NCBI GenBank assembly: GCA_025917655.1 | Contig: CP084616.1 | Location: forward strand, 1,860,001-1,924,000 | DNA length: 64,000 nucleotides | Source: Chlorella sorokiniana | Lineage: Eukaryota; Chlorophyta; Trebouxiophyceae; Chlorellales; Chlorellaceae | Direction of reading: 5' to 3' | In this document: in pieces, positions 1,654-57,700 of the stretch | Numbering within the stretch: the first letter of the stretch is position 1 | How the letters are laid out: each line of letters opens with the position of its first letter | The notes under the pieces: generated by a model | What the model was told of the DNA's origin: nothing | The model's input: only the letters and a program-made list of their open reading frames with translations | Databases searched by the model: none | Made by a program: the position numbers and the translations under genes

Positions 1654-4058
1654 ATGAGCAGCTTGGCGGAGCTAGAACCGGCGGACTGGGCCGTCATAGG
1701 CACCGCAGGTGGGCCGACACCCTCGGCGAGTCCAAGGGCCCCTGCCACTATTTCGTGCGGCGGCCCGCCTGCTGACTGTGGGTACTGGGTGCAGGTGCCG
1801 CCACCGTGCTGGCCCTGGCCGCCTGCCTGTACACCATCCCCTGGCGCCGTGGCGGCTGCAAGGATGCCGCTCGCAGCTTCTCCGTGCTGTGGCGCGGCCG
1901 CGCCTGGCTCAGCCTGCTGGCGGCGGCGCTCTCGCTCTCCCTCCTGCTGCGCGTCAGCCTGCTGTGGGGCCCCAACTCGCTGCTCTTCCCCGCCAGCATC
2001 ACCAGCTGGACAGGGGCGGGCTGGATGTGCAGGTGGGTGCTGCGCTGCCACTGCAAACATGCTTCCCCTCAGGCCCTCCCGGCCGGCCCACCCCCTGGCT
2101 ATGCGCCCTGGCACCGGCATGCTTTGCCTGCAGACTTTTTAGTTGATCCATCCTGCTTGCTGCGCTCACCCCGCAGGATATACCTGACCGTTAGCCTGGG
2201 GGTACTGCAGCCGCTCTGCGCTTTCACAGCGCTGCTGATGCTCACGGCAGCCTTGAGGTGCGACGCCGTGCCTTGAGCACAGCCTGCCGCCCGGCATGCC
2301 GGCTCCTTTGCTGGCTCCTCTGCAGCAGCACAGGCCAGACGTGGCTGTCTGACAATGGCATGGAGCCCCCTCACCTCCTTCGCCCTCCGTCGTCCTCCTC
2401 CAACCCCTCTTCACCTCCTGTAACCTCTTTCAACTGCTGCCCCCCTTGCAGCCGCCGCCACCGCCCGGCGACGAGCGGCACCCCGCCGCGCGGCTGGTTG
2501 GGCTGGCACTGCTGTGCTCGCTGCCGTCTGCTGCCGTGCAGGCGGTGGTGGCCTGGCTGGGGCTGTGGGTGCAGCCAGGGGCCAGCCGATCGAGGCTTCG
2601 CCCCGCTCGGCGCTGGGCATCTTTTTTCGCCACTTACTGGCAGGGCAGCCCGGAGCAGTGCGGCACCGGCAGCGGCGTCAGCGACGGCGTCGGGCGGCGG
2701 CGGCGATGCCCGCGCCCTGTGCCGCTTGCACGTTCCCGGCGGCGGCGGTGATTGCGCACGCCGCGTGCACGCTGGCTTTCCTGGCTGCGCTGTGGACCAC
2801 CGCGGCGCGCCTGGCGGCGGCCGTGCTCAACACGCGGCTCAAGCGCAGGGTGCATGCCTTCCGGCTGTCCGTGTCGGCGCTGGCTGTGGCAGGTGAGCGC
2901 TTGCGGGCCTTGCGCATGCATGCCTGCCGCAAGCTGCTTCTCCCTACTCTCTGTGGGCTGCTGCAGCCTACACCTTGCGGAACCTCCTCGCTCGACTGAA
3001 GGTCGGCTGTGTGATGCCTACGGGTTCCTCACGCTTTTAGGCCCACTCTTGCCGCCCGCCCCGCCTGCAGGCGTGGCGGCCCTGGCTGTCAGCGTGGTGC
3101 AGGGCCCCTTCTCCTGGCTCAACGCCGCCTGCTGGCTGGTCTACGTCGCCAGCGTGGTGCTCAGCGCTGCAGTGCTGGTGTGGGGGTGGCGGTGTGGCCG
3201 GTGCGGGAGCTGCGAGCGGTGGACAAGGTGGGTGGGTGGGTGGCGGTGTGGGTGCGGGGGGGGACAGGGGGCGTTGGCAGCAGCGTGAGGGTCTGGCTCA
3301 GCAATGAGGGTTTCAGCACACATCCCCTTCCTTGTGTCTTCTGCACCGAATGTGTCTGTTGGCGATGCGGGTGCTCAGGGAAAGGGCTGGGCTGCCCTGC
3401 TGCCCGCGCCGTGACTGGGGGTGCCGCCGCTGCTGCACCGAGGGCCAGGGGCTGGGCGTCTGCCCTGCCCAGCTTGCCGGCCTGTCCCACGTCTGCGGCC
3501 GTCTCCCTGCCCATTCAGCGCTTGGCGTTGTGGGCCGACGCCTCAACCGCTGCCCTGGCAGCCGCTGGCGAGGAGGCTGTCGGCGGGGCAGGGGGTAGCA
3601 GCAGCGGCGGCGGGGCAGGCTTGATCAAGGCGCACAACCGTTCCTCGGACGCCGATGCTTACGTGGCGGCGTCAGCGGTGGCACGCACGCTGTCCGCCAG
3701 CCGCCCCCCTCCACAGCCGGGACGCCGCCGCGGCCGTCGCTGACGCTGCCGCAGCCGCAGCAGGCCCTGCTGACGCTGCCGCCCGGGCGCCGCCGCCGTC
3801 GCCGCAGCGCCCGCTGTCGCCGCTGGGAGGGGGCACACCCAAGCGGGCGTCGTCGCAGCAGCGGGGGCTTCCCTGCTAGGGCAGAAGACGCCGCTGCGGC
3901 TGTCGGCTCTGCCCGAGCAGCTTGCCTATCCGACGCAGCTGGCGGCGGCGCACCACCCGTCCTCGTTGGCGGCCGAGCCGACTGCACTGCAGCCCCTCTT
4001 CACGGCGGCGGTGCCCGCTGCAGCGCAGAGCGAGGACCAGCAGCTTTTGTACCCTTGA
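1654..4058 (+). CDS. Unrecognised multi-pass membrane protein
   Basis: I do not recognise the family. Exon 1 (1654-1708) starts MSSLAELEPADWAVIGTA. Exon 2 (1795-2032) and exon 3 (2177-2257) are well supported and encode strong hydrophobic helices, for example around WLSLLAAALSLSLLLRVSLL and YLTVSLGVLQPLCAFTALLM. A further exon from about 2452 to 2892 and one from 3071 add more helices (AVIAHAACTLAFLAALWTTA; VASVVLSAAVLVW). The C-terminal part, from about 3520, is Ala/Gly/Ser-rich and low in complexity. The last open segment ends at 4058, but two other frames end earlier (3743, 3879). At least two frame changes are unresolved: around 2650-2710, and at a G run near 3185 where one more G would join the last helix to VWPVRELRAVDK. 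Six or seven membrane spans are likely. Function is unknown. Confidence 0.5.
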
Positions 4059-4940
4059 CAGATTGATCGGAGCAGTTCTTGCATTGGCCCGCTGCGGCTT
4101 GGGCTCGGTGGCACTGTCGGCGCCGACTGAACCCCTGTGCTGGCGGAAGGCCTGCTGATAGTCGACTCTTACCTGCTCTGGGTCCCACCTCCCCTGTATT
4201 TTGACTTGGTTTTCAAGACTTCTGAACAATCTTGCAAGCAAACCCCCGCATGCACGACGTGTCCCTGGCCCCCTTGCTTTCTTCCCTTGTGCGTCAGCTG
4301 GCGCCCGCTCTACCTCACCACAACTCTGTTCCCGCCCTCTGAGTTCGAAACCATCGTGCGCCGCTTTGAGTTCAGCTGAGACTTTGCCAGCACTTTCCAG
4401 CTTCTGTGCTGCTGCACGCTGCCTGTCACGGTGCCCGCCCAGTTTTCCACGAATGTCTCGTTCTTCTGCCGTTGCCACAAGCACACTCCTGATAAACGAT
4501 GGCTGTGGTTCAGGATTCCTGCGCTGAGAGTGAAGTGCTGAAAGTGCGGCGTGCATGACGTGACGCGTCGCAGGCAGGGCTGCTGAAGCAGGTAACCGGC
4601 AGGGCCACAACTGGCACCCACCGCCACAATTTTGTCACAAGTAACAGATCTTCGCGGCGGGAATCCTCTAACTGCAGAAATCGGCGCAGAGTTGGCGCAG
4701 CGTAAGTGACTACGCATCCTTCACTCAAGTCCGCCATCACCGGTTCGGTCATCCTGCAAGCATGCTGAGCCTGTCATGCGCTCACATAAGGGGTGTCTTA
4801 AACCGGGATTTTCCTGACACAAATGCGTTTGTGTGTCACCATTTCGACACATTCTTTTCGTTGTGTGATTGCCAGGGAGCGCCGCTGGGCAGCCAAGTCC
4901 CATTCACGCCGACCAGCTAGCCGCTAAGCGGGCAGGCATA
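4059..4940. other. Intergenic: no gene seen
   Basis: This is less GC-rich than its surroundings and has no homology-like exon. It contains the 3' end region of the membrane-protein gene and the promoter of the first ABCG gene. No TGTAA signal was found. Confidence 0.5.
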
Positions 4941-7900
4941 ATGGATATCGAGACCGGCCATTATAATGGCCATAAAGGCACACACATTGTGCCCTCGGCC
5001 TCAACTGGCTCCCTGAACGGCATGGCCTACACCAGCAAGTCGCTCAGCAAAGCCTTCTTGAGTGCAGGGATGGTGGTGTCCATCAAAGTGAGAAATGAAT
5101 GTCGGCGGCTTGTGCCGTGTGCTTCCGTTGTCCGCTGGCGAGCCTTCCCGCCGCCGCCACGTCCTCCCGCCCTGCTGTGCCGCTGCCATGCCTGATCCTG
5201 CCGCTCGCCCCCGCCGCTGCCTGCAGGACATCACTTACACCGTCGTCAACTCCCAGAACAAGAAGGAGCAGATCAGCCTGCTGAAGAATGTGTCGGGCTA
5301 CATCCTCCCCAGCGAGATGACGGCCCTCATGGGGTGAGTTGGCTCCGTGGCAGCCCAGCCGACGGCTCTTCTGCCGCCGCAGGCGGAGGAACCCCGCCCT
5401 CTGGTGCTTCCCAACCGCCCACCCTTCCCCTGTACTCTTATGCACACAAACACGCTCCCAGGGCTGCTCGCCGCTCGACGACATAGTTGTTTCGTTTTCG
5501 TGCTCGTGCTCCAGCGCCAGCACTGAGCACCCACCACTCGCCCCCTTCCCCCGCAGCCCCTCTGGCTCCGGCAAGACCACGCTGCTGGACCTGCTGGCCG
5601 GGCGCAAGACTGTGGGCCACCTGGAGGGCCAGATCGCCTTTGCCGGCAACAAGCCCACGCCCCAGTTCCTGCGCCGCTTCACGGGTGGGGCGCTGGGCTC
5701 CTGCGCCTGAGCTGCACCGCGGACGCCCGGCCCCCATGCATGGTTGCGTGCACCAGCTCCTTCCCCTGCGCCCTTCACCTTGCTTGCCTCGGCACTGCAG
5801 GCTACGTGGAGCAGTTTGACACGCTGCTGGGCACCCTGACTGTCGAGGTGCGCGCTGTTAGTCTCTCACTTTGGACCGAGCAGCGCTGGCTGGTGCCTGC
5901 GGCGCTGCAGGCTTGCGATGCACACCTGGCTGCTGGGCACCTCTTCTTTGTAGGCAGGCCTTTCGGTGTCCCTGCTGCCTGCTTCATCCTTTGCTCTCGT
6001 GCCTGCCTCACGCCTCCCCGCCGCCCTTGCCTCTGTCTCCTCGCAGGAAATGCTCATGTACACGGCTGAGCTGAAGCGCCCCATCAGCCAGTCGCACGCC
6101 GAGAAAAAGTCGGCTGTGGAGGAGCTGATTGATGTGCTGGCCCTGGAGGGCTGCCGCAACGTGCTCATCGGCAACTCCATGACCAAGGGCATCAGCGGCG
6201 GGCAGGTGCGGCTGGGGTGGGGCTTGGCAGCGGCCCAGGCCAAGGCCACTGTGAGCAAGCATTGGGTCCAACGAATCCCTAAACACGTCCCACCCACAAC
6301 CCTCCTGCAGTCCAAGCGTGTGAACATCGGCATCGCTCTGGTCACCAACCCCGAGTGCTCTTCTTGGGTGCGTTGGGGCCGCGGCCTGCCGCTTTCCACG
6401 TCGCTGGGCTGCGGCCGGGCGTCTGCCTGCGCCGTTTCCCTATCTGCCGCTGGCGTTGAGAGGGCTTGGTCCTGCCTGCAGATGAGCCCACCTCCGGCCT
6501 TGACTCTTACACCTCCAACGAGGTCATGACGGTTGTCAAGTCGCTGGCCAGCAGCGGCATCACCGTGTGCGCCACCATCCACTCCCCCACCCCCTACTGC
6601 TTCAACCTCTTCGACCGCCTGCTGCTGCTCCTGCGCGGCGAGGTCGTGTACTTTGGCCCCAACGGTGGGTGGCAGGCTGATTGGTGCTGTGGTGCAGCGA
6701 GATGGCGGCAGCGGGAGCCACTCCGGCTGCTGCTTCAAGCTGTGTTGTGCCACCTGGCCATTGTTGTCTGCAGGCAAGATGGCCGTCGACTACTTCCACA
6801 ACCAGTGCCCCTCGGTGGAGGGCCTCAAGGAGGGCGAGAACGAGGCGGAGTGGATCGTGGACCTGACCACGCAGGTGGGGCGCTATGAACAGCCGTGTCA
6901 ACATATCAATTGATCGCAAGCAGGGTGGATGCCGGCAGCCTGCTGACCTTGTGTGTGTGTGTGCGTGTGCGTGTGTGTGTGTGTGTGTGCGTGTACGCGT
7001 GTGTGCAGCATGTTGCCAGGACTCAGCCTTGGTGCCCGCCTGAGGGAGCAACGCTGCGACTGCCCCGCCTCCTCCCGCTGCGCAGGCCGACCGCCAGGGG
7101 CGCTCCGGCGACTTTGCCGCCGCCTTCGCCAAGAGCGAGCTCAAGGCGGAGGCGGACCGCGAGATTGAGAAGCTCCTGGCCCAGTCTTCTGACCTGGGTG
7201 GGTGGCGTCGGCGTGGCTGCTTGTGATTCATGTGCTGGCACCGGCATTGAGTGCAGGCTCATGTGGGCGTCTGCCTGAGCAGCCACTGCTCCGGTCGCCC
7301 ACCTGCTCTCATACCCCCTCAGCCAGTCAGCTGTTTCACGCGCCCTGCCTGCCTGCCTTCCTGCGTGGCCGGCTGCAGACGAGGCTACCAAGAAGGACCT
7401 GGCGGTGAAGCGGGAGACTGTGACGCCCTTCTGGTGGGCGCTCAAGACCCTGTTCAAGGTGGGAGCCTGCCTGCCTGCCAGCCTGCCTGCCGGCTGCCGC
7501 CTGGCTTCCTGCTGGCCCCCTGCTTGCTGTCGTCAGGGGGCCAGGGGCGGGAGCAGGGCACTTCTGCCACCTCTGTGGTGGATGTTGGGTGATGGATGTG
7601 GCCGGGTCAGCCTGCTGGGCTCGGCCTCCTGTTGCTGCTGCTTAGCAGCCTGCCCCTTGCCTCGCCCTGTCGCAAACCCTGCATCTGCGCTGCCCCTTGC
7701 TGCAGTACCGTACCACCAAGAACTACAAGTCCCCCGACTATCTGGGCCCCGCGTGGCCGACAAGCTGATCTTCTCGTGAGCGCCGCTGCCGCTGCGGGGT
7801 GCTGTGCGGCAAGCGCTCGCCGCCGTCCGCCTGCCTCGTCGGTGCTTGCGCGCCTCCCAACGACTGCCGTCTTGTTTCTGAAATCTCTGAAAGCTCTGAA

Positions 7901-9759
7901 CCTATGGCCCTCGCTCCCTCCATGTACTGCCTGTACCGCAGCCTCATCATCTTCACGCTGTACTGGAAGGTGGGCAAGGACCTGACCTCGGCCAATGTCA
8001 ACAACATCTCGGGTGAGAGGCGAGGCAGGGCCCGCGGGCGTGGCAGCAAAGGCTTTACACGTGTCCTGCTGCACTCGGGGGCGTGCGTTTAGAGGAGGGG
8101 AGGGGTGGGCTGAGAACGGGGGGGCGGGGGCCGGTTGTGTGCGGCGAGCGGCGGCCTGTGGAGCGCACCGCGACTGCAGCAGGCCTTGGGTTCACCACCC
8201 CCAGTGCAGATGGCCTCCCAGTCGGTGGCACTGAACGCTGCTGTTCCCACCCCTCCCACTCCCCTCTCACCCCGCAGCCGTGCTGTTCATGTGGGTGTGC
8301 TTGCCCGCCTTTGGCGCCGCCTCCTACGTCCCCGCCATCGTGCTGGAACGCCCGCTGTTTGTCAGGCAAGCGTCGCCCGCCTCCTGCCACGGCTGCTGCG
8401 GCTGCCTTGCGCGCAATTATGTTGTCCCACAGAGCGTCGACGTTGCCGACATCCTGCCGCGCCTGTCTGTACCGCGTGCAGGGAGCGCAACGACGGCCTG
8501 TACCGCGTCGTCACCTACCTCGTCGCCAAGATTGTGGAGGAACTGGGCATCGCCCTGCTAAATTCCATTGCATTTGGTGAGCGACCATCATTTCTCCAGC
8601 TGCGTATCTAGGAGTGCGTGTGGGGAGCGATGAGGCTGTGTCAAGCAGCCAACGTCAACCCATCGCCCGACGACAGCTTTTCAGCGCCTCGGCTGCCAGA
8701 CTGGAGTGATGCTGCGACCCAAACCCACCCAATCACCCGCCCATTCATCACACTACCCCCCTTTCATCCGCAGCGAACCTGGTGTTCTGGACGCTCCAGC
8801 TGCAGGGCTCCTTTGCGCTCTTCTGGCTCACGTACTTCGTGACCCTGTCCACCGGCATTGGTGAGCTGCCCGGGCTGCAGACCGCTGTTTGATTCTGGTG
8901 GAGGCGCTGCCGCCCCACATGGATTTGCGCATGGATCTGCCCCTCGCCCCGCTAACGCTGGCGCCAGCCCGCCCAGCGCACAGCATCTCTTGGTGGAGCG
9001 GGACCCAACCTCGGAACTTCCTACAACCCCTGCCTCTCCCCTGCAGTGCTGGCCTACTTCATCGCCGCGCTGTCGCCCAACATGGACGTCGCCAACGCCG
9101 CGCTGCCCACCTACGTCGTCTCCCTGCTCTTCTTCTCGGGCTTCCTCATCCGCTACGACGACATCCCCAACTACTGGAAGTGGTACAGCTTCATCGACTT
9201 CCTCAAGTACGCGTGGGGCGCGCTGATGAAGAACCAGTTTGCCGGGAGCGCAACATCGACGTGAGCTTCTGCACGATCAGCGCACCGCGTGCTGGGGCAA
9301 TGGCTGGCAGCAACCTCGCTGCTGCACAGCTTGCCAGCCCCCTGCTCTTGCTGCCACAGCTGCAGCCCGCCCCAAACTCGAGCCACCGACCCCGCGGCCG
9401 TGGCGCCCAGCCCCGTGCTTATCACCGTGCCTTTGAACCTCCCTCCTTGCTGCTGCCTCCTGTCCTGCAGTTTGTCCCCGGCCAGACCGTGTTGGACTAT
9501 TACAACCTGGCCGGCATCAACCGCTGGGGCTGGCTGGGCATTGAGGCCTGCTTCACAACGGGTGAGCCGCCACCTGCGCACGCCTGCTGCTGGGCTTTGC
9601 GTTACGAGTGTACATAATGCGCCGCGGCCGGGCAGCACCTGCTGCAGCCGAGGCTCCACCTGTTGCCGACGACTTGCTTCTCGTCTGTCTGCCCCTCCTG
9701 CAGTCTTCTTCGGTTTTGCCTTCCTGGCCCTCAAGTACGTGAAGCACGTGCGGCGATGA
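4941..9759 (+). CDS. ABC transporter G family half-transporter, tandem copy 1
   Basis: This encodes an ATP-driven half-transporter (nucleotide-binding domain, then six-helix ABC2 membrane domain) that should work as a dimer in a membrane. The substrate cannot be read. It has 18 exons: 4941-5087, 5227-5333, 5557-5684, 5801-5847, 6047-6205, 6311-6367, 6482-6664, 6774-6874, 7086-7197, 7379-7458, 7706-7775, 7942-8012, 8278-8365, 8482-8576, 8774-8860, 9047-9260, 9471-9561, 9704-9759. Motifs in order are Walker A GPSGSGKTT, signature ISGGQ, D-E-P-T-S-G-L-D of Walker B/D-loop, and H-loop TIHSPT. Three one-base breaks (C run 6349-6352 in Walker B, C run 7747-7750, G run 9244-9246) interrupt the frame; adding one base to each gives 631 codons. 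The intron at 8366 has a GC donor. Copy 2 is about 0.8 kb downstream. Confidence 0.92.
6951..7006. repeat. TG/GTGC microsatellite in ABCG copy 1 intron
   Basis: This is an alternating GT tract with GC interruptions inside the intron between exons 8 and 9. Confidence 0.9.
8366..8481 (+). other. GC-AG intron in ABCG copy 1
   Basis: Exon 13 ends LERPLFVR at AG|GCAAGC and exon 14 starts G|GAGCGCAAC. No GT donor keeps the frame. The 116-nt length is not a multiple of three and the unspliced frame is wrong, so removal is required. The corresponding intron in copy 2 begins GA. Confidence 0.75.
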
Positions 9760-10600
9760 AGCGGCGGCGTGGAGAAGCTGGCGCGGCGCCTGGCGCCGTC
9801 CCTCACTGGGCGCGCCCCAGCTGCAGACTGTTCCCCAGGCTGGCAAGCTGCCGCACGCCCGCTTTTGGCAAATCGAAGTTTGCCTGCAGCTGCACACGGT
9901 TGTGTGCGTGCGTGTTGCTGGCGGCTTGGCACTGTCGCCGCCCCTAGATTGCTGCCCCGCCTGCCTTCTCCCAGCGTTCCTTGCCTGCTCGCCTGCCATT
10001 CATTGCCACCTCAGCGTTTTGCGTGGCGTTGTCAGTCCCAAGCTTGTCTCCAGTACCTCCCTCTATACTTGCCCTTCTACGCGGCCTCAAGCTGCTTCCC
10101 TGCCCCTGGCTTCTGCACCCAGCAGGCCAAGCGCACATTGCTCCCAAAACCTGGCCTTCTCCCGGGCACTCGGCTTTGCTCGCTACTGCGCGCTGTGTCC
10201 CACCACCGTACTTAGAACTTCCATCAGCCATTTCTGCAGAATCCGTGCCACACCCTTTCCATGCGGGTGTGCTGAGCGCCCGCCCGCCCGCCCTCGTTCG
10301 CCGCGCTTTTGCGGGGCGGGGCCCGTGTAACATACGCGACTCGTGCCCCTTGCCGAGCGTAGGTTTCGCTTGCGACCAGCCCTCCTGATCCAGCAGCTGC
10401 TGCTAGGGGCATAGCCGACGCCTTAGCGACCGGCTGCCGACTCGCAGCGTGCGCAGCATGCCAGGGCGCAGCCGCCTTACAGAGCAGGAATTCTGCAGGT
10501 CAATCGCTTTATGTGATTCAGAATAGGCATTACGTTGTTCTTTGCCGCTGTGTTGCGAGAATCCCCGCACTTCGAGTTGGGTTTTCACCGCTCAGCGCCC
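9760..10600. other. Spacer between tandem ABCG genes
   Basis: This holds the 3' UTR of copy 1 with a TGTAA at 10326-10330 and the promoter of copy 2. No exon was recognised. Confidence 0.6.
10326..10330 (+). promoter_or_regulatory. Candidate poly(A) signal TGTAA for ABCG copy 1
   Basis: TGTAA is the usual green-algal polyadenylation signal. It lies about 570 nt past the stop and is the only copy in this spacer. Confidence 0.45.
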
Positions 10601-13600
10601 ATGGCTGACTTGGAGGCCAACCCGATATCTGGAAAAGATGTCGACATCGTCGTTACCAAGCCAGGGCGCACAACCAGGGCACTGAGCACGGCCTTTCTCT
10701 CTCATGGGATGAGCGTGTCATTTCAGGTGTGCCTGCCTCAGTGGGTGCTTCGATCTTGAAACTGTTTCACAAATGGCGCCGAGCTGTGCGGGACCTCGTC
10801 GTTGGCGCCAACTACCAGGGCCAGCGGAGCTGCAGCCTGACGACCACCCACCATCCTGGATGTTGGGCTGCTGCAGGACGTCACCTACACCGTAGTCAAC
10901 TCTCAGAACAAGAAGGAGAAGATCAGCCTGTTGAAGCACGTGTCTGGTTACATCCTGCCGCGCGAAATGACTGCCCTTGTGAGCTCATCGCCAGCTTCTG
11001 CCCGGCCCTGGCTGCCTTCGGTCCATGCTTGAGTTGTGAACTGTGCCTTGTGGCGTCCTGCTGGCTCTGTTTTAGCCTGGAAAATCATCTTGCCTGCCGC
11101 GGTCGCTGCTCCCCTGCAGATGGGGTAAGCTGATGGCGTCCGGATGCACGCCTGCATGAACAAGGCTGGCATCACGCTCGCCTGCAGTGCTTGGCAGGCC
11201 ATTGATGCAACAGGACAGCTGTACGCACCGACTGCAGATGCTCCGGTTCCCATCTGCACCTTGACCGCCTGCCGCTTCTTGCCCTTTCCCCCGCAGCCCC
11301 TCTGGCTCCGGCAAGACCACGCTGCTGGATCTGCTGGCGGGGCGCAAGACTGTGGGCCACCTGGAGGGCCACATCGCCTTTGCCGGCAACAAGCCCACGC
11401 CCCAGTTCCTGCGACGCTTCACGGGTGGGCCCTGCTGCCAGCATGAGCAGGTCTTGGTTTGTCTTCTGCACCTTGGTTACAGACACTCGCCGGTAAGCGA
11501 GCACCCAGTGTATCAAGCAGACTGACGCGTGCGCTGCTGCTGCAGGCTACGTGGAGCAGTTTGACACCCTGCTGGCCATGCTGACCGTTGAGGTGCGCTG
11601 TCTGCAGTTTGGGGCCTTGTGGGGCTGGCTGGGCGCCGGTGACTGCACCAGTGCCGGATGTGCAGTGCACAGTGTGGCAGGCCAACTCACGTGTGAGTTG
11701 CCGTGGCCTGCTTCATTCATGTTTCTCAGCATGCGCCTGCAGGAGATGCTCATGTACACGGCTGAGCTGAAGCGCCCCATCAGCCAGTCGCACGCCGAGA
11801 AGAAGTCGGCTGTGGAGGAGCTGATTGATGTGCTGGCGCTGGAGGGCTGCCGCAACGTGCTCATCGGCAACTCCATGACCAAGGGCATCAGCGGCGGGCA
11901 GGTGCGGCTGGGGGTGGGGCTTGGCAGCGCCTCAGGCCCAGGCTGCTGTGAATAAGTAGTGATCCCAGCGAGGCAGCCGACAACGTCCCACCCACAACCC
12001 TCCTGCAGTCCAAGCGTGTGAACATCGGCATTGCGCTGGTCACCAACCCCGAGTGCTCTTCCTGGGTGCGCTGGGGCGCCAGCTCGCTTTGAGGAAGCCT
12101 GCCCTGCTGCTTCGCGCTTCCCGTGTCGCTCAATCCGGCATCTGTTGACTGCCGCTGCTTGCAGATGAGCCTACCTCTGGCCTGGACTCCTACACCGCTA
12201 ATGAGGCGAGGCTGGAACAGGGGGCAGAGGCAGCGGGCAATGACGCCTGCTGTTCAGTGTGGCCTTGTGGTGGAAGCAGCTGCTAAAAAACTTGCACGGT
12301 TGCAGTTTTGCCGCCCCGTGCCTGGTGGTGTTGAATGAGAGCCTCCCGTGCCCCTTCCACGCAGGTCATGTCGGTTGTCAAGTCGCTGGCTGCCTATGGC
12401 ATCACCGTGTGCGCCACCATCCACTCCCCCACCCCCTACTGCTTCAACCTCTTCGACCGCCTGCTGCTGCTCCTGCGCGGCGAGGTCGTGTACTTTGGCC
12501 CCAACGGTGGGTGGGAGGCTGACTTGTTTCTGTGCGGGAGCCACAGCTGGCGACATCTGTGGGGGAGCCACTCCAGCTGCTGCTTCAAACCGTCGTGCTG
12601 CCCTGCCGTTCTTCTCTGCAGGCAAGATGGCCGTCGACTACTTCCACAACCAATCGCCCTCGGTAGAGGGCCTCAAGGACGGCGAGAACGAGGCGGAGTG
12701 GATCGTGGACCTCACCACGCAGGTTGGCTGGGCCTTCCCTGGCAGCCGGGCCGCAGCAGCCCGCCAGGAGCTGCCAAGCAGCGGCCGGCTGGCAGTGTCG
12801 CTTGGGCCTCGCCCTCCTGCTTGTGTGGCAGCTAGCTGGGGTGGCTGAGCCGACACGGTGGCACAAGGAGCTGTCGCTGCTGCCCCACCCTCCTCCCTGC
12901 TGCGCAGGCCGACCGCCAGGGGCGCTCCGGCGACTTTGCCGCCGCCTTCGCCAAGAGCGAGCTCAAGGCGGAGGCGGACCGCGAGATCGGGCGCATGATG
13001 GCACAAGCGTCTGACCTGGGTGGGTTGTGGGCTTGTGGTCAGTCTTGTGAGTGGAGATGCAAGTGGCAGCATGGACGGAGCTGCGGCGTGAGGCATTCAC
13101 GCCGCAGCTGTCGGGCGTGGGTGGGGCGGACTGCAACTCGGCCCGGCGTAGTGGCTGCTGCAGTGGGCCGCTGCCTGCCGGCGGCGATCCAAACTGTCGA
13201 TGAAAGGTGGCCGGCTGCAGATGAGGAGACGAAACGCGACCTGGCGGTGAAGCGGGAGACGGTGACGCCCTTCTGGTGGGCGCTCAAGACCTGGGCACGG
13301 GTGCGACGGGTGGGGGTCCACTGGTGAAGTACGCCTGAGTGGCCTGTGTGTTTGTGTGTTTGTGCGTTGGTGTGTATGCGGTGGTGGTGGTGGTTGGTGT
13401 GTGTGTGTGTGGGGTGGGGGTGGGGGTGGGGGGGGCGCAGCGGTTTCGGGAGGCTGCCCTGGCTGCTGCAGCCTGTGGCTGGTGGTGCCCCGCTTTGACG
13501 AGCCAGTTGCTGTCGTTGTTCGCTATCTCGTGATTGCATGGCTGCGCTCCTTGCTGCCCCCGCTGCAGTACCGCACCATCAAGAACTACAAGTCTCCCGA

Positions 13601-15784
13601 GTACCTGGGGCCCCGCGTCGGCGACAAGCTCGTCTTTGCGTGAGCTGGCGCCGCCGCCGCCCGCCGCCGCCCGCTGCGCCAGCTCCGGTCCCCCAATCTT
13701 TTGGAGGGGCTGACCTGTTGCCCGCGCCAATAGTGTTGTTGGTCGCAGCCAGGGCTGCCAGCGCTGCCACTTTCCTCCCGAGTGAATGAAGCCACCTGGC
13801 CACACACACGCCTCTGCTCTCTGTCATGCGTGCCCGCGTGATGCCATTGCCTGTCCACCACCTTCCGCGCAGCTTCATCATCTTCACCTTGTTTTGGTCG
13901 GTGGGCGACAACCTGGCCGCCGACAACCTGATGAACATCTCGGGTAGGCGCCCAGCCGTTCCCCCACTGCTGCGCTGCCTTCCAACGACGCCTCAGGGCG
14001 CTGTTCTTTCTTCTTCCTTTCTTTCTGCAGCTGTGCTGTTCATGTCGCTCTCGCTGCCCGCCTTTGGCGCCGCCTCCTACGTCCCCGCCATCGTGCTGGA
14101 GCGCTCGCTGTTTGTCAGGAAAGCGCCGCCCGCCCTCTGCCACGGCTGCTGCTGCTGCCTTGCGCGCAACATATTGCCGTACAGCAGACCCACAGAATGC
14201 CGGCGTTGCCGACCTCCTGCCGCGCCTGCCCGTACCGCGTGCAGGGAGCGCAACGACGGCCTGTACCGCGTCATCACCTACCTCGTTTGCAAGATCCTGG
14301 AGGAGGTCTTCATCGCCCTGCTAAACTCCATCGTGTATGGTGAGCAAGCAGCGGCAGGGTTGTGAGGCAGCGCCGTTTCTACGGCAAGAAACACGTTTGC
14401 TTCTAGAACTCTGGTTTGGCAACCCTTTTCTGCTGGCCGCCCCCTGCAGTGTGCATCGTTTGGTGGACGCTTCAGCTGCAGGGCTCCTTTGCGCTCTTCT
14501 GGCTGGCCTACTTTGTGACGCTGTCATGCGGCATCGGTGAGTGGAACGGCGACTCGTGAGCTGCTCATGAGCTGCGGGAGCTGCAGTGCTGTTGAGCAGC
14601 CGCTGCTGCTCGGTAGATTCTCTAGCGGCCGCTTGGGGGTGGGGGTGGGGGTGGGGGGCAGGCGGCGCAAGCCCGCATGCCCGTAAGGCCCCCCCCTTCG
14701 GGCCCCTCCACGCAACTCCCCCTCCACACACTCCAGAACTTTGCCCCTGAGCTCTTTGCCTCATCTGCCGCCTTTGCGCAGTGCTGGCCTACTTCATCGC
14801 TGCCATGTCACCAAACCTGGATGTCGCAAACGCCGCGCTGCCCACCTACGTCGTCACCCTGCTCTTCTTCGGCGGCTTCCTCATCCGCTATGAAGACATC
14901 CCCAACTACTGGAAGTGGTACAGCTACATCGACTTTCTCAAGTATGCGTGGGGCGCGCTGATGAAGAACCAGTTCAACGGCGACCGCAACAAGGAGGTGC
15001 GCTGCCGGCGCCGCTTGCCTGCCCCCTCCCTCCCCTCCGCCTACCCGCCGCTCACCCCACCGACCCCCCGCCTCTTGTTTACACCAAGTCTGTTTGCAGC
15101 ACTCCCCACCAACACCAGCCCACGAACTGTGCTCAAGAATAACGCGTGCGCACCCCCCCCCCCCCCTTCCCCCTTCCCCCTCACACCCCACCCCCATTCA
15201 TCCCCACACACCCTGTGTGGCACACAGTTTGTGCAAGGCCAGACGATCCTGGACTACTACGGCTTCACCGGCATCTCAATGTGGGGCTGGCTAGCCATCG
15301 AGGCCTGCTTCTTCGTAGGTGAGGCCGCCGACTGTGTGTCTGTCTGTGTGGGGGTGGGTGGGTGGGGGGTGGGTGGGGGCTGTAGTGCTGTTGTGCTGTT
15401 ATGCACCCTTTCCTCATTTTATTGAGGCAAGGAACTGCCAGAATCTTGGGGGCTTGCGCCGCCGGCTGCCGCCCCTGCACCGGGAGTGGCGCAGCATGTG
15501 GGCATGTCACCCTGTGTGGGGACTGTGTGGACAGCGTAGCTGTGCGGCGAGAACAGCTTGTGTGGGGAAGTGCTCCCCTGCAGCTTCCAGGTCGCGGCTG
15601 TGCTGCCCAGATGCCCCGCGGCCGTGCTTGCAAGGCCCGCGGCGCAGCTGCCGCCGCCAACGCTGCCGCCGCGGCCGAGGCAGGGCAGTTGCCAACCGCC
15701 GTCGCCCTCCGCCCCGCCCCTCCTGCAGCGTTCTTCGCCTTTGCCTTCCTGGCCCTCAAGTACGTGAAGCACGTGCGGCGATGA
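10601..15784 (+). CDS. ABC transporter G family half-transporter, tandem copy 2
   Basis: This is a close paralogue of the upstream gene with the same domain order and near-identical exons. Exons: 10601-10726, 10877-10978, 11120-11124, 11297-11424, 11546-11592, 11743-11901, 12009-12065, 12165-12205, 12365-12506, 12622-12722, 12908-13019, 13221-13300, 13569-13639, 13873-13943, 14031-14118, 14245-14339, 14450-14536, 14782-14996, 15228-15318, 15729-15784. Adding one base at the C run 12047-12050 in Walker B gives 625 codons. Relative to copy 1 it has two extra introns: one creates a 5-nt exon (ATGGG), the other has a GC donor after T-A-N-E. The intron 14119-14244 has a GA donor and is stop-free in frame, so retention would add 42 residues. 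The N-terminus differs most between copies (MADLEANPISGK here). An in-frame codon further upstream is not an ATG, so 10601 is preferred. Confidence 0.92.
11120..11124 (+). other. Five-nucleotide microexon in ABCG copy 2
   Basis: The sequence is ATGGG, between CAG at 11117-11119 and the donor GTAAGC. It supplies the Met-Gly that copy 1 encodes contiguously in MTALMGPSGSGK. Without it the Walker A exon is out of phase. Confidence 0.8.
12206..12364 (+). other. GC-AG intron present only in ABCG copy 2
   Basis: The donor is AATGAG|GCGAGG and the acceptor CACGCAG|GTCATG. Copy 1 encodes the same residues (NEVM) without an intron. Confidence 0.75.
13343..13437. repeat. GT/GGTG-rich simple repeat in ABCG copy 2 intron
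   Basis: TG and GGTG tracts followed by long G runs lie between exons 12 and 13. Confidence 0.85.
14119..14244 (+). other. Intron with GA donor, open in frame
   Basis: This is the homologous position of the GC-AG intron of copy 1, but it starts GAAAGC. It is 126 nt, exactly 42 codons, without a stop. It is either non-canonically spliced, retained, or carries a base error at the donor. Confidence 0.6.
15153..15166. repeat. 14-C homopolymer in ABCG copy 2 intron
   Basis: An uninterrupted C run begins a pyrimidine-rich intron 3' half before exon 19. Confidence 0.9.
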
Positions 15785-16627
15785 AGGCCTTCGGCTCTGC
15801 ACAACCAATCCTCAACGAGGATGCCAGGCCAACTGGCCGAGAGCCACTCGCCTGCCCGCTTACCACGCTCCCTGCGCCACGCTCCTCTGCTACACCTGCT
15901 CATACTTTCATGTCCTGTGCATCATCCCGCTTGGATGCGTGTCATTACGTGCTTTAGCCTAGCCCAGATAGGCCATCTCTCAGTTGCGGCTGCAAACGTG
16001 GCGTGCTTACATGTCAGAGCGCATTTGCATGACGTGGCACAGTTGCTGGTTGGCGATGCATCTAGAACGTTGGACATTGTTGTTGATCATCGGGTGCGGC
16101 ATTCTTTGCTTCGCTAGTGAAGACGAATGAATCAGCGGATCAAGGTCAAGGGAATCAGGATGGCGTTGGCTCTGTATGTGTGCATAGGTGTGCATGGGGG
16201 ACCGTGGCGCCCGGCATGACAGAACATCGATGGCAGTGCAAAGGAGAGACGCGAGGTTGCAGGGGTGGTGAAGAACTAAGGGAACATAAAAGAAGTAATC
16301 GAGGTAGCAGGTGGTGGCAAGCGTATAGGGTGGCGGGTACACGGTGAGCATTAAACTGCGACAGCAAGCACGGCATGGGGGCTGTGGGCGGTCATGATAT
16401 GTGTGGGGCACATGGCGGGGTGCATGCATCTGGAAGAGCTGTCTACGCTACAAGCACTAGGGCGCCGCTGCTGCATCAATCAACACACATTGCGGGGCTC
16501 GCCGCCAAAGCTACGCGATGCGTGGGGCTGGGTGCGACTAACTAAGGGGCGGTGTGGCCGGCGGCCGCCAGCGGCTGGCAGCACTCAGGTAAGCCCGACA
16601 AGAGGCGCCTGCCAAACCAAGCAGCGC
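15785..16627. other. Convergent 3' region between ABCG copy 2 and bestrophin 1
   Basis: No exon was recognised. It is less GC-rich in the middle. A minus-strand TGTAA (plus TTACA, 16007-16011) could serve the bestrophin gene, though it is about 620 nt from its stop. Confidence 0.5.
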
Positions 16628-18484
16628 TCAGGCATCGGACTCGTCGAAGGAATCAAATATGGCCGCGGCCGGGGCAGGCTTGCGCGGCGCGGCCGCGCCC
16701 GCCCCAGGCCAAACGTGCCCGGGGACGGGCGCTGCGCCGTTGGCGCCGGCCGCACGCGCACGCCTCGCAGCCGCTGCCCTCTTATCGGCAGACCGCTCCA
16801 GAGAGCCACCAGGCACACCACTCAGGCCTGGGTCAGCCAGGCCGGAGGCGGCAAGAGCGGCGTCCACCTCCCGGGCGGCGGCGGCGGCCGCCGCCTTGGC
16901 TGCACGCTTGCTGGGGCCCGCCTGCTGCAGCAGGTCGGCCAGCCCGCACTCCATCTCCTGGCACATCTCCTCCAGCGGCAGGATGCCGAAAGGCTCCTCG
17001 ATGGCCACTGTGTGTATTTGGGGAAGGGGGGGGCAGCGAACTGGTGAGTATCGATTCTAAGCGGCCGGCAGCAAGGCACCCTGGGTAATATGGGGCGGCC
17101 AGGTAAGGGGGGAAGGGGAGGGGAAGGGGAGCGGGCACCAGCGGGCAGCCAGCCGGTGCAGCGGGCAGGCGAGGGCACAAACGGGAGCGCGGAGTGGAGT
17201 CGGCAGGATGGGCCCGACTCAACCGCAGCCTGGCAGGGCCACACGGGCAGCTGCATGCCCACCGGCCTCTGCCTGCCCACCGACCGGGGCCGCCCCGCAC
17301 CCCCAGCTGCAGCCGCTCACCCCGATCTCCTCGATGCCCAGCAGCAGGAACGAAATGACGACGGTGAGCGGCACGGTGCCCCAGCCGCACTGCGCCCAGA
17401 GCCCCAGCGGCAGGCAGGCCAGCCAGATGACCTTCAGAGGGAGCAGGGGGCGCACAGAACATGGCGTATGAAAAATATGTATAATCGTATCAGTGGAGCG
17501 TGTGTGTTGGGACGGGTGGCGCTGCGCATCCGTGCAGGTGGGGTTCAGGGTTGGGGAGCAGCTGGGATGCGTCAGCTGGCCCAAGCTGGGCAGGCACATA
17601 CGCATGCACAGCAGGGCCGGGCAAGACAGCGCCACAAGCCACACGGGAGGGAAGGAGCAGCGTAAGCGCGGGCCAGCCCCAGCGCTTCGCACCATGAAGC
17701 GGGAGGTGTGGCGGGTGTAGGAGAGCGGGATGGGGGTGCGCAGCAGGCGCTCGCAGCGCCCCCACGGCGTCCTCAAACGCTGCGGGAGGAGGGGAGAAGC
17801 GCGTCAGCAGCGGCGACAGGGAGGCGTGAGCCAGGGGGTGGGGCGCTGGCTCACTGCGGGTGTTTCGTGGTGGGGGACCGGCATGAAGGGTGCAGGGTGC
17901 AGCGCGGCCCCCTCAGCACACCCTCAGCCACCGGCAGCAGCGAAGCGTGCGGTGCCCACGCTCCAGGCCCACACTGGAGACAGCCGCACCACCCACCCGT
18001 GTAGTTCTCGTCCACCCGCGCGCGATGCGTCTCTCGCAGCGGCGCCCCCTCCGCCAGCTCGGTGAGCACGGCCAGCGCAAAGGCGGGGCGGTGGCGGGCA
18101 GCCAGCAGCGCCGCCGCCTCCTGCCGGCTCAGCACGCCGCGCAGCTCGGAGGCCTGAGGAGGAGGGTGGGGGGGGTGAGGTGAGGGGGATTGGTTGCAGT
18201 GGTCAGGTGCGGGAGGGGGGACAGAGGAAGGCAGGAAGGGGTCATGTGCTCAAGATGGGGCCGGAGCCCAGGCGGGGCAGCGCATCCAGAACGGTGGGAA
18301 GGGGTCCCAGCACCAAGTCCCAGTGTGAACAGCCGCGGCGAGCGGCAACAGAGAGTGAAAAACAAGAGAGCTCCCTGCAACGCCGCCCACCAAGTCTGAG
18401 TCCTCTGTCAGCTGCGACTTGAGCGCCCGGCAGAAGGCCACCAGCCAGCGGGCGGAGGAGGCGGCGGTCTGCGTGGCGCGGCGC

Positions 18485-18518
<34 letters not shown>

Positions 18519-36300: not shown

Positions 36301-37544
36301 GGTTCCCGCCCTGCCGGCTGCAGCTACTTTGGCCACTCGAACATAGTGAACTTCGACGGTACCGTGCTGGCCGAGTGCGGCACCTCCCCCGACGAGGCCA
36401 CGTACGCTGAGCTGTCGCTGTCCGCCATCCGCAACGCGCGGCGCAACTGGACCGCGGAGAACCACCTGTGAGCGCAGATGCTGCTGGGTGCTGCGTTGTG
36501 CTGCATGTCCCACTTGCCTCTCGGCACGGATCAGGGAAGGGGCCCCCGGGGATGGGCTCTGGGGATTTGTGGGCGTGTTTGCATGGGGGGCTTGAGCGTG
36601 GGCCTTGAAACATTCACGTGTCAGAGCCCAGCGGCACGCCCTCTATGGGCCCTCATGCCCTCCCCATCAACATCCCCGCGCCCCCCCGCCTCCCCCGCGC
36701 CCCCCCGGGCCCGGACAGCTACAACCTGCTGCACCGCGGCTACACCGGCGAGAGCCCCGGCGGCCACGCCACCCTGCCCTTCGACTTCTACAAGCTCTGG
36801 GCGGCGGCGCCCGAGAAGGCGAGGGCGCTGTCCGAGGCGCTGACCCGGGACGCCGGTGGGGCCCCCTGCTGCGCAGCATGCATGATTGAAAAACACGACA
36901 TGAAGGGAAGAGCCGGAATGCTTGGGCCCGTAACTCATTGCCCGCCGCGGCTGGCGTGCCCATGCTGTGTTGCACTTGGGCGGGCCGTTGCCCCTGACCC
37001 CGCATGCACCCTCTTCCCCCCCCGCCACAGACTCGCCCGCCGACGCCACGTGCCCGGATGCTCCCGTCATGCCGGCCTCCCGACTGATCCAGGTGAGCTG
37101 CGCGCTGCAGGGCAGCACGGCACAGCTCAGCACAGCAGCTGGGTTGCAGGGCAGGAGTCACAGGTAGCCGGCAGGCAGCCCCTCAGCGGGGGGCCCCATG
37201 AGGCTGTGCTGGTGGAAAAGCATGGGAAACACCGCGCAGGTGGATCCTGAGGCACCCTGCTGCTCAGCCTGCTCCACGAAAGGCAGGGCAGCACGGCACA
37301 GCAAGACCCGCTGGCCTGCCCAGAGGGACATGTCTATGTACAGCGTCAGCCGGTGGGAGGCAGGCAGGCACGCAGCGGCATGGGCGAGCCGCTGTCAGAC
37401 CAGCTCTCAAGGGCCTGGCCCCGACCTCCCCTCCCGCAGTCCACTCTTGGCAAGGCCGCCAACGGCGCTGCCAATGGCCACGCCAACGGAGTGAACGGCC
37501 ACGCCAACGGCTATGCCAACGGTCACGCCAATGGCGTGCACTGA
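33355..37544 (+). CDS. Aliphatic amidase (nitrilase superfamily, AmiE-like)
   Basis: This hydrolyses short amides (acetamide type) to the acid plus ammonium, probably in the cytosol. It has 14 exons: 33355-33403, 33531-33588, 33771-33833, 34028-34134, 34439-34527, 34810-34847, 35147-35232, 35445-35523, 35783-35830, 36064-36120, 36324-36467, 36719-36855, 37031-37092, 37440-37544, summing to 373 residues with no frame break. The start [16 protein letters not shown] aligns with bacterial AmiE. The catalytic triad is visible: Glu in FPEYSTQG, Lys in YRKIFPW, Cys in GGCICYDMNMPE. Family segments [22 protein letters not shown] and [12 protein letters not shown] follow, and the amidase-specific LHRGYTGE end is present. 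The last exon adds an Asn-Gly-His-Ala repeat tail not found in AmiE. The intron after exon 5 has a GC donor. Formamidase is the main alternative; bacterial origin is an inference. Confidence 0.93.
35541..35580. repeat. GTGGGT hexamer repeat in amidase intron
   Basis: About five tandem GTGGGT units lie just after the exon ending IQGYM. Confidence 0.9.
37440..37544 (+). repeat. Asn-Gly-His-Ala repeat tail of the amidase
   Basis: The final exon codes for repeated ANG, NGHA and NGVN units (AAC-GGC-CAC-GCC and variants) up to the stop. Codons vary between units, so the repeat is kept at protein level rather than being a fresh DNA expansion. Confidence 0.9.
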
Positions 37545-40613: not shown

Positions 40614-42685
40614 ATGGCTGCACTACAGGGTAAGGTGGCCATCGTGACTGGCGCCAGCCGTGGAGCAGGCAAGTCCAACTCCCGACCCGCGAAGCCACAG
40701 AGCTGACGTTGTTGCATCCGGCAATCATTAATTATTCTGCATTACAGAGCGCTTTTCGCCGCAGTCGAGGCTCTGCATCGCCTGCGCCCGCCCCTGGCTT
40801 CCCGCACCTTCAGGCGCGGGCGTGGCCCGCGCGCTAGGCAGCGCGGGTGCCACAGTCTACGTCACCGGCCGCACGCGGCGTGGCGGCGCACGGCCGGCTG
40901 ATGGTGCAGCAGGGACGGTGGACGACACCGCGGAGGAGGTGACGCGCGGGGCGGGTGCGGGGTGGCTGTGGCATGTGACCACACGGACGACCGCCAGGTG
41001 AGGCGGCTGCTGGGTGCTGGGCTGGGCCTGTGTCTGGTATACCCTGCAGTCACGAATTCGACAGCAATAATTGTTGGCTGGGCTGCTGCCCATCTCGGTG
41101 CAACACCGCGCCCGAGCCCGGTTCAGCTTCCTCTCCTCAGGTGGCGGCGCTCTTTGAGCGGGTGCAAGAGGAGCAGGGGCGGCTGGACCTGCTGGTCAAC
41201 GCCGCTTGGGGGCAACGAGGTGCGGACAAGCGCCTGCCTCGCCCCGCTGCCACCCGCGCACAGTGTTGGCAGGTTGCAGCGCCCGGTGCTTGCCGCGGCA
41301 GGACGTGCCCCGGATGCGCCTGCCTAGAAGCTGCAGTGTTCACATCGGCAGCGGCGCTGCGCGTCACAACGAGGCATCAAGCACATCAGCATTGCAGGTG
41401 CCGGCTGACCACACCTTTCTCTTCTCGTTGCACCGCGCCGCTTCTTGCCAGGTGCCTGGCATGCTTTCCAACTGGGCCGCGCCGTGCTGGGAGGCCGACG
41501 CCGCCGTCTACTGGGAGCGCATGTTTGGTGCGGGGTGCGCCCTGCGCTCATGGGTGAGCCTGGGAGGCGCCCGCTGCGACGCGGCCCTGGTCAGGACAGT
41601 TGCGGTTGTGGGGAGGCAGGTGCAGGCAGCAGGCGCTGCAAGCCGCGTGTGCAGGCTGGCGAGCAGGCGCCGTGGCTGCTCCTTCCCCGCAGCCTCCATG
41701 CACGCTGCGCGCGTCATGACGAAGCAGCGCGGCGGCCTCATTGTCAACGTGTCATTCGTGCCCGCCGCTGACGGCGGCGGACCCGCCGACCAGTATCTCG
41801 GCAACCTGTTTTACGACCTCTCAAAGGCGGCCCTGAACAGGCGAGCAGCAGCAGCTGCCCCTGCAGGCTGCCCCGACGCGTGCTCAAGCTGCCATTGCAG
41901 GTGGTCTGCTGCGCTGTGCTTCACACCAGGACCATGCCGTTCGTCCTTCATACCAGGATTGTTTGTGCCTGCCTGCCACCTGCCACTCCCCTGCCGCCGC
42001 AGGCTGGCTTTCGGCCTCGCCACCGATCTTCGGCCGCACGGTGTGGCAGCGGTGGCGCTGTCACCGGGTCACCTGCGTACCGAGCGCGTGCTGCAGGTGA
42101 GGCCTTTGCTGCTTGGTTGTTCTGCACTTGCCAAGAAGCTGCTGTGCTGGCGCTGCTCGGCGAAACGTCTGCAGCGCCGCCAACACCAGTCGCTTACTTC
42201 TGCGTGCTCTCCAGCTCAGACTGCGATCCTAACCCCCACACCCACACCCACGCACCTTCTTTCAGACCTACGGAGCCACTGAGGCAGGCTGGCAGGAGGT
42301 GCCAGAGCTGGCTGACAGCGAAACGCCCGAGTACTTGGGCCGCGCGGTGGCGGCACTGGCCGCCGACGGCGACGTGCTGCGCTACACCGGGCAGGTGAGA
42401 CTGGCCAGGAGAGCGCTGCGTGTACTTACTTCCTTTGCTGCCTCGAAGTTATGTGACGGCGGCGTGCTATCCAGAGTGCCGAACGCGGCGACTGTGCTTC
42501 CCTGTCGTGCAGCGTGGGGCTGCTGGTGCGGCGCATCCTCAGCACTGTGCACCAGATTGTAAGCGCCTCTCCTGCGGGTGTCCCACGCTGTACTGCAGGC
42601 CCTCCTGGTTGCTGAGCTGGCAAGGCGGTACGGTTTCACGGACGTGGACGGGCGGCAGCCGCCGCCGTTCAAGGTGCCCGGCTGA
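40614..42685 (+). CDS. Short-chain dehydrogenase/reductase, DHRS1-like
   Basis: This is an NAD(P)-dependent oxidoreductase of unknown substrate. Exons are 40614-40668, 40814-40997, 41141-41219, 41452-41553, 41693-41840, 42003-42096, 42266-42394 and 42599-42685. The N-terminus MAALQGKVAIVTGASRGAG carries the nucleotide-binding TGxxxGxG loop. LDLLVN precedes the N-A-A motif, and the catalytic Tyr-x3-Lys is in F-Y-D-L-S-K. LSPGHLRTE and RRYGFTDVDGRQ match the DHRS1 branch. Introns after exons 1 and 5 have GC donors (GCAAGT at 40669; GCGAGC at 41841), giving a very unusual density. Three frame breaks at G runs (40959-40962 one short, 41208-41212 one long, 41532-41535 one short) must be allowed for. 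No targeting signal is obvious. Confidence 0.85.
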
Positions 42686-48200
<5,515 letters not shown>

Positions 48201-54768: not shown

Positions 54769-57700
54769 TCACAGCTCCTGCTTCGCCTCGGCAGCGTCCC
54801 CAGCAAGCTTGGCCATGGTCAGCGCCAGCACCTGCACACAATGCAGACCAACGTAGGATATGTTTAGTTTGACTGATGCGTCGCATACTGGCGCAGCGCA
54901 GCGTGGCAGCGCGCCACACCTTGACGCCCGGGCAATGTCCTCGGGAGGCGTGCTCGTCGGGCGGTGAGACCAGCCGTTGCGGCAGGGGATGAAGATCATG
55001 CCGGTGGGCGCAATCTGCAGCAGAGAGTGCCAGCCCCTCCCAAGGTTAGCTAGCCAAGGTGGAGCGGACAGACGAGGGATGGGTCGGTGCTGGCGAGCGG
55101 ATGAGCGGGGCCATTTCCCTGCAGCTTCTGCCGGTACCGTTCCCCCACCTGGGCCATGAAGAGCGAGTCGTGGTAGGCGCGGGACACCATGCGCCTGCTG
55201 CTGTACCCCAGCTCCCTGCGGTACAAACACGGCGGTACAGGCAATCAGTATCAGCATGCTGATGTGCTGCCAGGGGCAAGGGGCAGGTGGCCTGAAAAGC
55301 TTCAGTCGTGGGGGCGTGCACCCCTCACAGGACTACCGCAGGCAGATGCTAGCGACAGCTGAACACAGCTCGGCAGCGCGCAGGCTGGCCGGCGACAGCA
55401 GGAAGCTGTGTGGGAGCTCTCTCACTCGACGGCAGCGGCAACAGCCTGCACCACTTCTGCCCCGAGGTGGCTGGAGGGTCCTGGTTGATCATGTCCACGC
55501 TGTGCCGCACCTGTACCGCAGGAGGTAGCAGTACAGTGCGGCGGTCCAGCGTTTCAACGATGGTCAAACGCAATCTTGGCAGCAACAGCGGAGGTGAAAA
55601 CCAACCGTTTTGCTATTGAACAAACCGTTGGTGTAGCAAGATGCCAGCCTTACCCTGGGTCGGCTGTGTACCCCACCAGCAGCAAGACACAAAGCAGGAA
55701 GACACAAGAAGCGGTGGCAAAGGCCAGCACCCACCTTGCGCTTGTCCGCAATCTCGGCGGCCTTGGCTCGGATAGCGGCCACCACGCCGTCCCGCCGCGT
55801 ACCGTCGATGTCCCGCACATCAATCTCTAGCCGCGCCTCCCGGGGCACTGCGGCAGCGGTGTTGGTGGGTGCACCAATGTTGGTGAGTGCACCAAGATAA
55901 GATTGGCGGGTGCACCGGGCAGCAGGGATGTGGCGTGAGAGCTTGGTACAGTAGTGAGCTGAGAGGCCCCTGCAGATGCCTGGCTGGCCTGCCCCCTCCA
56001 CCACTGCTGTCCACCTTGATGCCTAGCCTTTGCAGGGTTGGCAAACAGCAGTCGCCGCCTGAATTGACCAAGGGGCTATTCTGCAAGGTTGATATGAGTC
56101 ATAGTAAAAGAAAACCCACCAGAGTTGACCGCGTTAGGCTTGATGTCCCAGTAGCCTGTGGTGGCTACAGCGTCAATGGCGCCTGCGGTATGAGCGGCGG
56201 CGCGGCGCGGTACAGTCAGTTTCGGGCGTTCAAACACCAGACGCTGACTTTGGCGCTTCCCAAGGCGAGCGCATGCCGAGACGCTGGGATGGGAGAGCAT
56301 GGCCGCAAACGCAGTGCAGCAGGGACAGAAACGTCTTAATAGATTGACTCAACAGAAAAAATACCCAACTGGCGCACCTATGCCGAGCGCCGCCTGCTCC
56401 ACGAACAGCGCCAGTTCAGCCGCCGCCAGGCTTGCGTCGTTGCGCCACGGCATCAGCTGCGCGCCCGCATGGCCGCCGTCGCCTGGCGGGGCAGCGCGCC
56501 ATGGCACGTTTGCAGGCGCTCGACGTCGCAGGCTTGCAGGCCGGCCATTCGGCCGCCCATCCCACCCTCGCCGCCTCTGCTGCCTGTCCCGCACAAGCGA
56601 GCCCTGCACCCAGGCACTCTTTGCCGCCCATCAACCCACCTGAGAACGACACGCGCAGGGCTGCGGGGGCGGCGATGGCGGTCACCACTCCGACCTGCAG
56701 GCCCTCCTGCTCCAGCTGGGGGCCCTGCGACAGGAGCGGCAGCGGTGCGGCTGTGTTTTTATCGAATTACAATGCAGTTGCATACATGAGAGCACACGTG
56801 GAGTGATTGTTCCATGGGGTCGGTCGCCCGGTCACGCTCACAACCACAGCCACCCGCCCACCTGCTCAATATGCAGCTCCACAAAGGCGGACAGGTCGGC
56901 AGGGGTGCGCCGCGCCCCCGCAGCATCTCCTCGTAGGTGGCGGCGCCGTAGCCGGCTGCGGCAGGGCGGCAGGCGGGGGCAGGCGGTCGTCAGGTGGGCG
57001 CAGATGCTGGCGAGGCACCGGCGTTGCTGCAGCAGCGCAGGGATGTGCATGGTCTGGCTCCGTCCAGGGCCCGGACGCAGGGCAATCGATGCTGCTTGCC
57101 TTGACAGGCAGGGGGAGATTTGGATCCGGCAGCAGCAAAACTAAGCCAAAAAAAAGCGGGATCCGGCAGCAGCAAAATCAAGCGAAATAAACAGCTCACC
57201 CGCGCGCGCAGCCTCCAAGTACGAGGTTCCGTTCTCGTCCCGCCGGCTGTCCAGGTAGGCAGCATCCAGCACGCCTGCGGTACAGATCATGCAGTACAAC
57301 CGATACAACCGGCTCACGTGGACCCTCCCAGCACACCTGCCCCTGTGAGCGGCACAGCAACCAAGCTGCGCAGCCAGGCAACATCTGTGAATTCCTGCGC
57401 CCTTTGCCGCCCAAGTACCGCAAGTCCCAGGGCGCTGATCACCCTTTCCATCCTTCCACCCACCCCTGCGCACCACCAACAAACATCCCCCCCCCCCCCC
57501 ACACACATCCCACATACCCACCCAACCACGCACCCGCCATTGCGCGCGAGCCGCTGCAGGAGAGCGCAAAGCGGGTGGGCTCCTCGCTCGTGAACATCAC
57601 CACCTCAAGCGGACGGGCGGGCACAAAGCCGGCGTCCTTGAGGGCCTTCAGGGCAGCAATGCCGCCCACCACGCCTGCAGCAGGGGTAGTGGTGGTGGTG

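Follow-up and report, generated by a model that had tools for sequence, protein, structure and literature searches.

We analyzed a window of 64,000 nucleotides of the Chlorella sorokiniana genome (contig C11, positions 1860001 to 1924000; the genome totals 38.8 Mb in 15 contigs), which carries two ABCG transporter genes, HSP90C, an aliphatic amidase gene, SQD1, a ureidoglycolate amidohydrolase gene, and two genes whose families we take to be bestrophin-like and short-chain dehydrogenase-like. A sequence-only reading of this window had listed 18 firm sites at which a gene appeared to be broken by a change of reading frame. Alignment to parts of six genes in the window, 2,722 codons in all, revealed ten frame changes, nine of them one-base losses and one, at 46428 to 46431, a change of +1 (or −2). 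The firm sites and the amidase are as follows, with the position given by our aligner in parentheses.

6349 to 6352 (6353), plus strand, ABCG copy 1: one-base loss at CCCC before GAG, near what is presumably the Walker B motif
7747 to 7750 (7742), plus strand, ABCG copy 1: one-base loss, CCCC followed by G; paralogue alignment
9244 to 9246 (9247), plus strand, ABCG copy 1: one-base loss, GGG after C; paralogue alignment
12047 to 12050 (12051), plus strand, ABCG copy 2: one-base loss, with the same place and motif as at 6349
17320 to 17323, minus strand, bestrophin-like gene: break suggested by intron phase; three-frame reading
17759 to 17763, minus strand, bestrophin-like gene: probable +1 or −2 at a 5-run; three-frame reading
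27797 to 27799 (27799), minus strand, HSP90C: one-base loss in a short CpG-rich stretch; against human HSP90-beta
31124 to 31127 (31123), minus strand, HSP90C: one-base loss within the conserved DTG motif; alignment
38889 to 38892, plus strand: break of the sequence-only reading at CCCCGAG; sequence context only
40959 to 40962, plus strand, short-chain dehydrogenase-like gene: one-base loss at CGGGG; three-frame reading
41208 to 41212, plus strand, short-chain dehydrogenase-like gene: possible +1 or −2 at a 5-run; three-frame reading, weak
41532 to 41535, plus strand, short-chain dehydrogenase-like gene: likely one-base loss at CGGGG; three-frame reading
43598 to 43601, plus strand: break of the sequence-only reading upstream of the SQD1 match, outside the reference protein
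46428 to 46431 (46430), plus strand, SQD1: +1 (or −2) at an exon start; against Arabidopsis SQD1 (1i24)
48117 to 48119 (48115), plus strand, SQD1: one-base loss at CCCGAG; against 1i24
54927 to 54929 (54930), minus strand, ureidoglycolate amidohydrolase: one-base loss in a CCCGGG stretch; against 4pxb
55460 to 55463 (55456), minus strand, ureidoglycolate amidohydrolase: one-base loss at CCCCGAG; against 4pxb
56915 to 56919, minus strand, ureidoglycolate amidohydrolase, N-terminal part: one-base loss at a 5-run; three-frame reading, outside the reference
33364 to 36869, plus strand, aliphatic amidase (internal control): 12 exons, 320 aligned codons, no change; against a Pseudomonas amidase

The frame changes were located with a purpose-built aligner, in which a protein is fitted onto genomic DNA with both introns and frameshifts allowed. 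The references were human HSP90-beta, SQD1 (1i24, Arabidopsis), ureidoglycolate amidohydrolase (4pxb), alpha-tubulin (6u42), DnaK (9dvi), Lhca7 of Chlorella ohadii, another Lhca (9kqp), and the two ABCG copies, one against the other, together with pea LHCII and a Pseudomonas amidase. The intron cost was set above the frameshift cost, because cheaper introns masked the change at 46428 behind a tiny exon. As a control, the same references gave no change in 986 codons of Escherichia coli dnaK (502) and most of htpG (484).

Ten of the 18 firm sites lie within alignable stretches, and all ten were recovered as frame changes at most 5 bases from the place first proposed. Since the aligner found no extra change there, the original list was complete for the aligned parts of the window, and the amidase, which had been described as free of breaks, indeed showed none once spliced. 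Six further firm sites (17320, 17759, 40959, 41208, 41532, and 56915) were judged by three-frame reading, which supported those at 40959, 41532, and 56915 as one-base losses. The earlier description of the breaks suits the one-base losses but not 46428, 17759, and perhaps 41208, where the change is +1 or −2; at 17759, and weakly at 41208, this would fit a true run two bases longer that was printed as 5. Pfam scans of 20 open stretches were poor because the exons are short and the frames broken, and gave three weak matches only, all below the curated cut-off. Searching PDB with a single raw frame of ABCG copy 2, its introns left in, returned no match.

The two half-size ABCG genes stand in tandem at 4900 to 15800 of the window, with 506 of 593 aligned codons identical. 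At the places of the 7747 and 9244 breaks of copy 1, copy 2 is in frame in the paralogue alignment, so one of the three copy 1 sites is common to both. The common pair, 6349 and 12047, occupies the equivalent place, and since both copies are broken there, neither can serve as an independent reference, and the two-frame reading was used instead. When that exon was read in two frames, Pfam ABC_tran was matched from position 1 to 137, the last of the profile, at 98.9 bits; read in one frame, the match ended at 128, at 80.6 bits.

The breaks are not peculiar to this window. The count over 23 loci (7,466 codons) was 27 one-base losses to two +1 changes; breaks were present in 17 of the 23, on seven contigs, and the amidase makes a 24th locus. 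Outside the window, 18 loci (5,064 codons) yielded 18 losses and one +1, with 6 loci clean and 12 broken, the latter on C1, C2, C3, C4, C9, and C10 and including genes for alpha-tubulin, HSP90, HSP70, and light-harvesting proteins. In alpha-tubulin, 260 codons aligned at 97% identity to the reference contained 3 losses, and when its pieces were joined over the breaks they gave a gapless match to Chlamydomonas-type tubulin. The cytosolic-type HSP90 on C2 had two losses; of three HSP70 genes, sampled from about ten places, two had one loss each and one had the +1 change; and light-harvesting genes, a family with 41 exon-level matches genome-wide, had zero to three losses each. One member of this family matches Lhca7 of C. 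ohadii at 158 of 169 codons. Identity to the references lay between 46 and 85% for SQD1, HSP90C, ABCG copy 1, and the amidohydrolase, at 69% for HSP90, and at about 70% for several light-harvesting genes. These counts exclude tubulin locus L060, the HSP90 gene on C4, one light-harvesting loss (C1:1862904) seen with the poorer of two references, and eight light-harvesting alignments that scored below 300 and contained two losses and two +1 changes, largely where the alignment was poor. Besides, an adjoining pair of light-harvesting genes was observed at C3:2421893-2427389, one with one loss and the other with three.

The lengths of C/G runs are distorted as well. In 286,105 bases, the window included, C/G runs of 4, 5, 6, and 7 numbered 2293, 1039, 115, and 34, against 2410, 776, 251, and 87 expected from an order-4 Markov model, and both the excess of 5-runs and the depletion of 6- and 7-runs held against models of order 1, 3, and 4. 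A/T runs of the same lengths (451, 98, 17, and 5) fell smoothly, with no compression. The C/G pattern recurs in the window alone (492, 205, and 24 runs of 4, 5, and 6) and in five arbitrarily placed 10-kb stretches (394, 158, and 20). In 21 modelled genes it extends from exons (21.5 kb; 40 and 0 runs of 5 and 6, with 31 and 10 expected) to introns (29.7 kb; 157 and 23, with 118 and 44 expected). Two GC-rich phages used as a control together had 27 C/G runs of 6 where 31 were expected, and phage VWB showed no steep drop (96 then 20 runs of 5 and 6; expected 84 then 20).

The losses also favor one context, a C/G run ending in CpG. Near CCCG or CGGG lie 17 of the 27 losses but only 884 of 7,380 codons (12%; p = 5e-10), and outside the window alone the figure is 11 of 18 losses (p = 1e-6). 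Among the sites of the sequence-only reading at C/G runs of at least 3, the run ends in CpG in 14 of 17; of the 4-runs in the window taken as background, 150 of 492 do so. The broken 3-runs ended in CpG in 6 of 6 cases, versus 147 of 530 3-runs from those exons; for 4-runs the values were 8 of 11 versus 60 of 148. These tallies include both +1 changes and rest on a crude assignment of changes to runs. When the longest nearby run was taken, a C/G run of at least 3 was present within 4 bases of 19 of 24 listed changes, as a raw count.

The light-harvesting paralogues provide a natural control. One conserved codon pair can be followed through eight alignable paralogues; two are broken (GACCCGAG), at C3:2426467 and C3:3406004 and at a common codon, three carry GACCCCGAG in frame, and the break is absent from six of the eight. 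The break therefore depends on more than the motif.

Judging from the assembled sequence, we consider it very probable that the frame breaks are base losses arising from sequencing and consensus building, i.e., under-calling of the nanopore type, and not mutations, because the changes are spread over the genome, strike essential genes, consist almost wholly of losses (27 versus 2), and cluster at C/G runs, and because C/G runs of 6 and 7 are collapsed in introns as well. Genome-wide spread, loss bias, run clustering, and run-length collapse likewise bear out the earlier proposal of long-read consensus error as the simplest explanation. A nanopore-type pore and basecaller would under-call C and G runs, many runs of 6 or 7 being reported as 5; shorter runs ending in CpG would lose a base in some contexts, and accurate reads may have gone unused, or not fully used, for consensus correction. 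We infer that the platform was nanopore and that missing polishing is the reason.

Several observations weigh against under-calling. All the evidence comes from the one assembled consensus sequence, and is thus indirect. C/G runs of 8 (34, with 25 expected) and of at least 9 (26, with 13 expected) are undepleted, so no hard ceiling exists, and phiC31 alone also shows a steep step (75 then 7 runs of 5 and 6; expected 53 then 12). A low ratio of 5-runs to 4-runs before G was considered as a CpG effect and rejected, both control phages showing it too. Ten of the 27 losses lie away from CCCG/CGGG, and 5 of the 24 listed changes, such as HSP90 C2:1978173 and tubulin C4:793408, lie away from runs of at least 3. 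The third tubulin loss is present at frameshift costs of 14 and 16 and absent at 18.

The alternative that survives best, although unlikely, concerns only the source: the losses could stem from PacBio continuous-long-read consensus or another fault of assembly or polishing. Passages of one report describe PacBio-derived assemblies of a high-GC bacterium in which some G/C runs of 4 to 10 are one base short (PMC11649196), whereas the step from 5 to 6 and the CpG preference are better fitted by nanopore, on general knowledge and on what the cited papers state in the parts considered here. It is improbable that some of the shifts reflect wrongly placed exon borders instead of missing bases. Those at 46428 and 17320 do fall on splice borders and hinge on intron phase, but each of the 24 listed changes is flanked on either side by 3 to 12 identical residues within 12 alignment steps, and introns were priced above frameshifts.

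That the broken genes are real pseudogenes, or alleles with true one-base deletions, is very improbable, as the sequence-only reading had also held. Two pairs of paralogues are broken at an equivalent codon (6349/12047 and the light-harvesting pair on C3), which could be inherited, but the light-harvesting break is missing from most of the family, and the C/G runs of introns are distorted too. Moreover, tubulin, HSP90, and light-harvesting genes are broken although otherwise well conserved, and in identity to the references the broken genes did not show the relaxed conservation expected of pseudogenes. Real shifts corrected by programmed frameshifting or RNA editing can be dismissed almost entirely: the recurrent CpG-ended context near the losses would suit recoding, but the motif is unbroken at the homologous codon in three light-harvesting paralogues, so that the break is neither required nor conserved, conservation of the shift at one codon within a family, which programmed frameshifting would predict, was not seen (the light-harvesting shift stands in two of eight paralogues, and copy 2 shares one of the three ABCG copy 1 sites), several genes would need two or three shifts each, and neither mechanism accounts for the collapse of intron C/G runs.

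Under-calling of this kind has precedents. According to the passages cited, deletions in nanopore data make homopolymers too short, above all those longer than four to five bases, with high G+C and methylation as further causes (PMC11649196); a Klebsiella test with default models placed about 70% of errors in a methylated motif, with homopolymers next (PMC6591954); and such indels commonly lead to frameshifts in gene calling (PMC9262707). The present case resembles these Oxford Nanopore consensus indels, as far as those passages describe them, in its genome-wide single-base losses at homopolymers and methylatable motifs and in its frameshifted gene calls. It differs in concerning a GC-rich alga and C/G but not A/T runs, in a platform deduced from the pattern, and in a context of C/G runs ending in CpG instead of the Dcm motif of the bacterial case. 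For Chlorella itself, the part of a report on long-read assemblies considered here describes nanopore-sequenced DNA with CpG methylation measured, HiFi and a polishing step being used there as well (PMC11005252). The kind of artefact is thus already well known; here it is dense enough to spoil many gene models. With 29 frame changes in 7,786 codons, or about one per 268, we estimate that, if changes fall at random, only about 1 in 6 genes of 500 codons can be read whole from the record. Gene predictions from it will often be cut short, and before gene loss, pseudogenes, unusual splicing, or recoding is claimed for this genome, the case should be checked against reads.

Across the window, the gene loci, and the five 10-kb stretches, the observed/expected ratio was 0.75 for CpG, 1.45 for TpG, and 1.44 for CpA, the kind of bias expected from long-term CpG methylation. 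A stretch of about 6 kb (C4:650317-656362) has DNA_methylase and DNMT1-RFD matches on the same strand, which suggest a maintenance methyltransferase of the DNMT1/MET1 type. CpG depletion with TpG/CpA excess, together with the DNMT1 RFD match, therefore makes CpG methylation plausible, and it may underlie the CpG preference of the losses. More tentatively, and with some doubt, the CpG-ended runs that lost a base might be the methylated ones, and similar runs left whole, such as those of the light-harvesting paralogues, might be free of methylation, in which case the assembly would carry an imprint of the methylome.

Four C runs of 13 to 14 stand in the window (15153-15166, 22428-22440, 46373-46386, and 57487-57500) despite the depletion of runs of 6 and 7; they are perhaps longer true tracts that were shortened.

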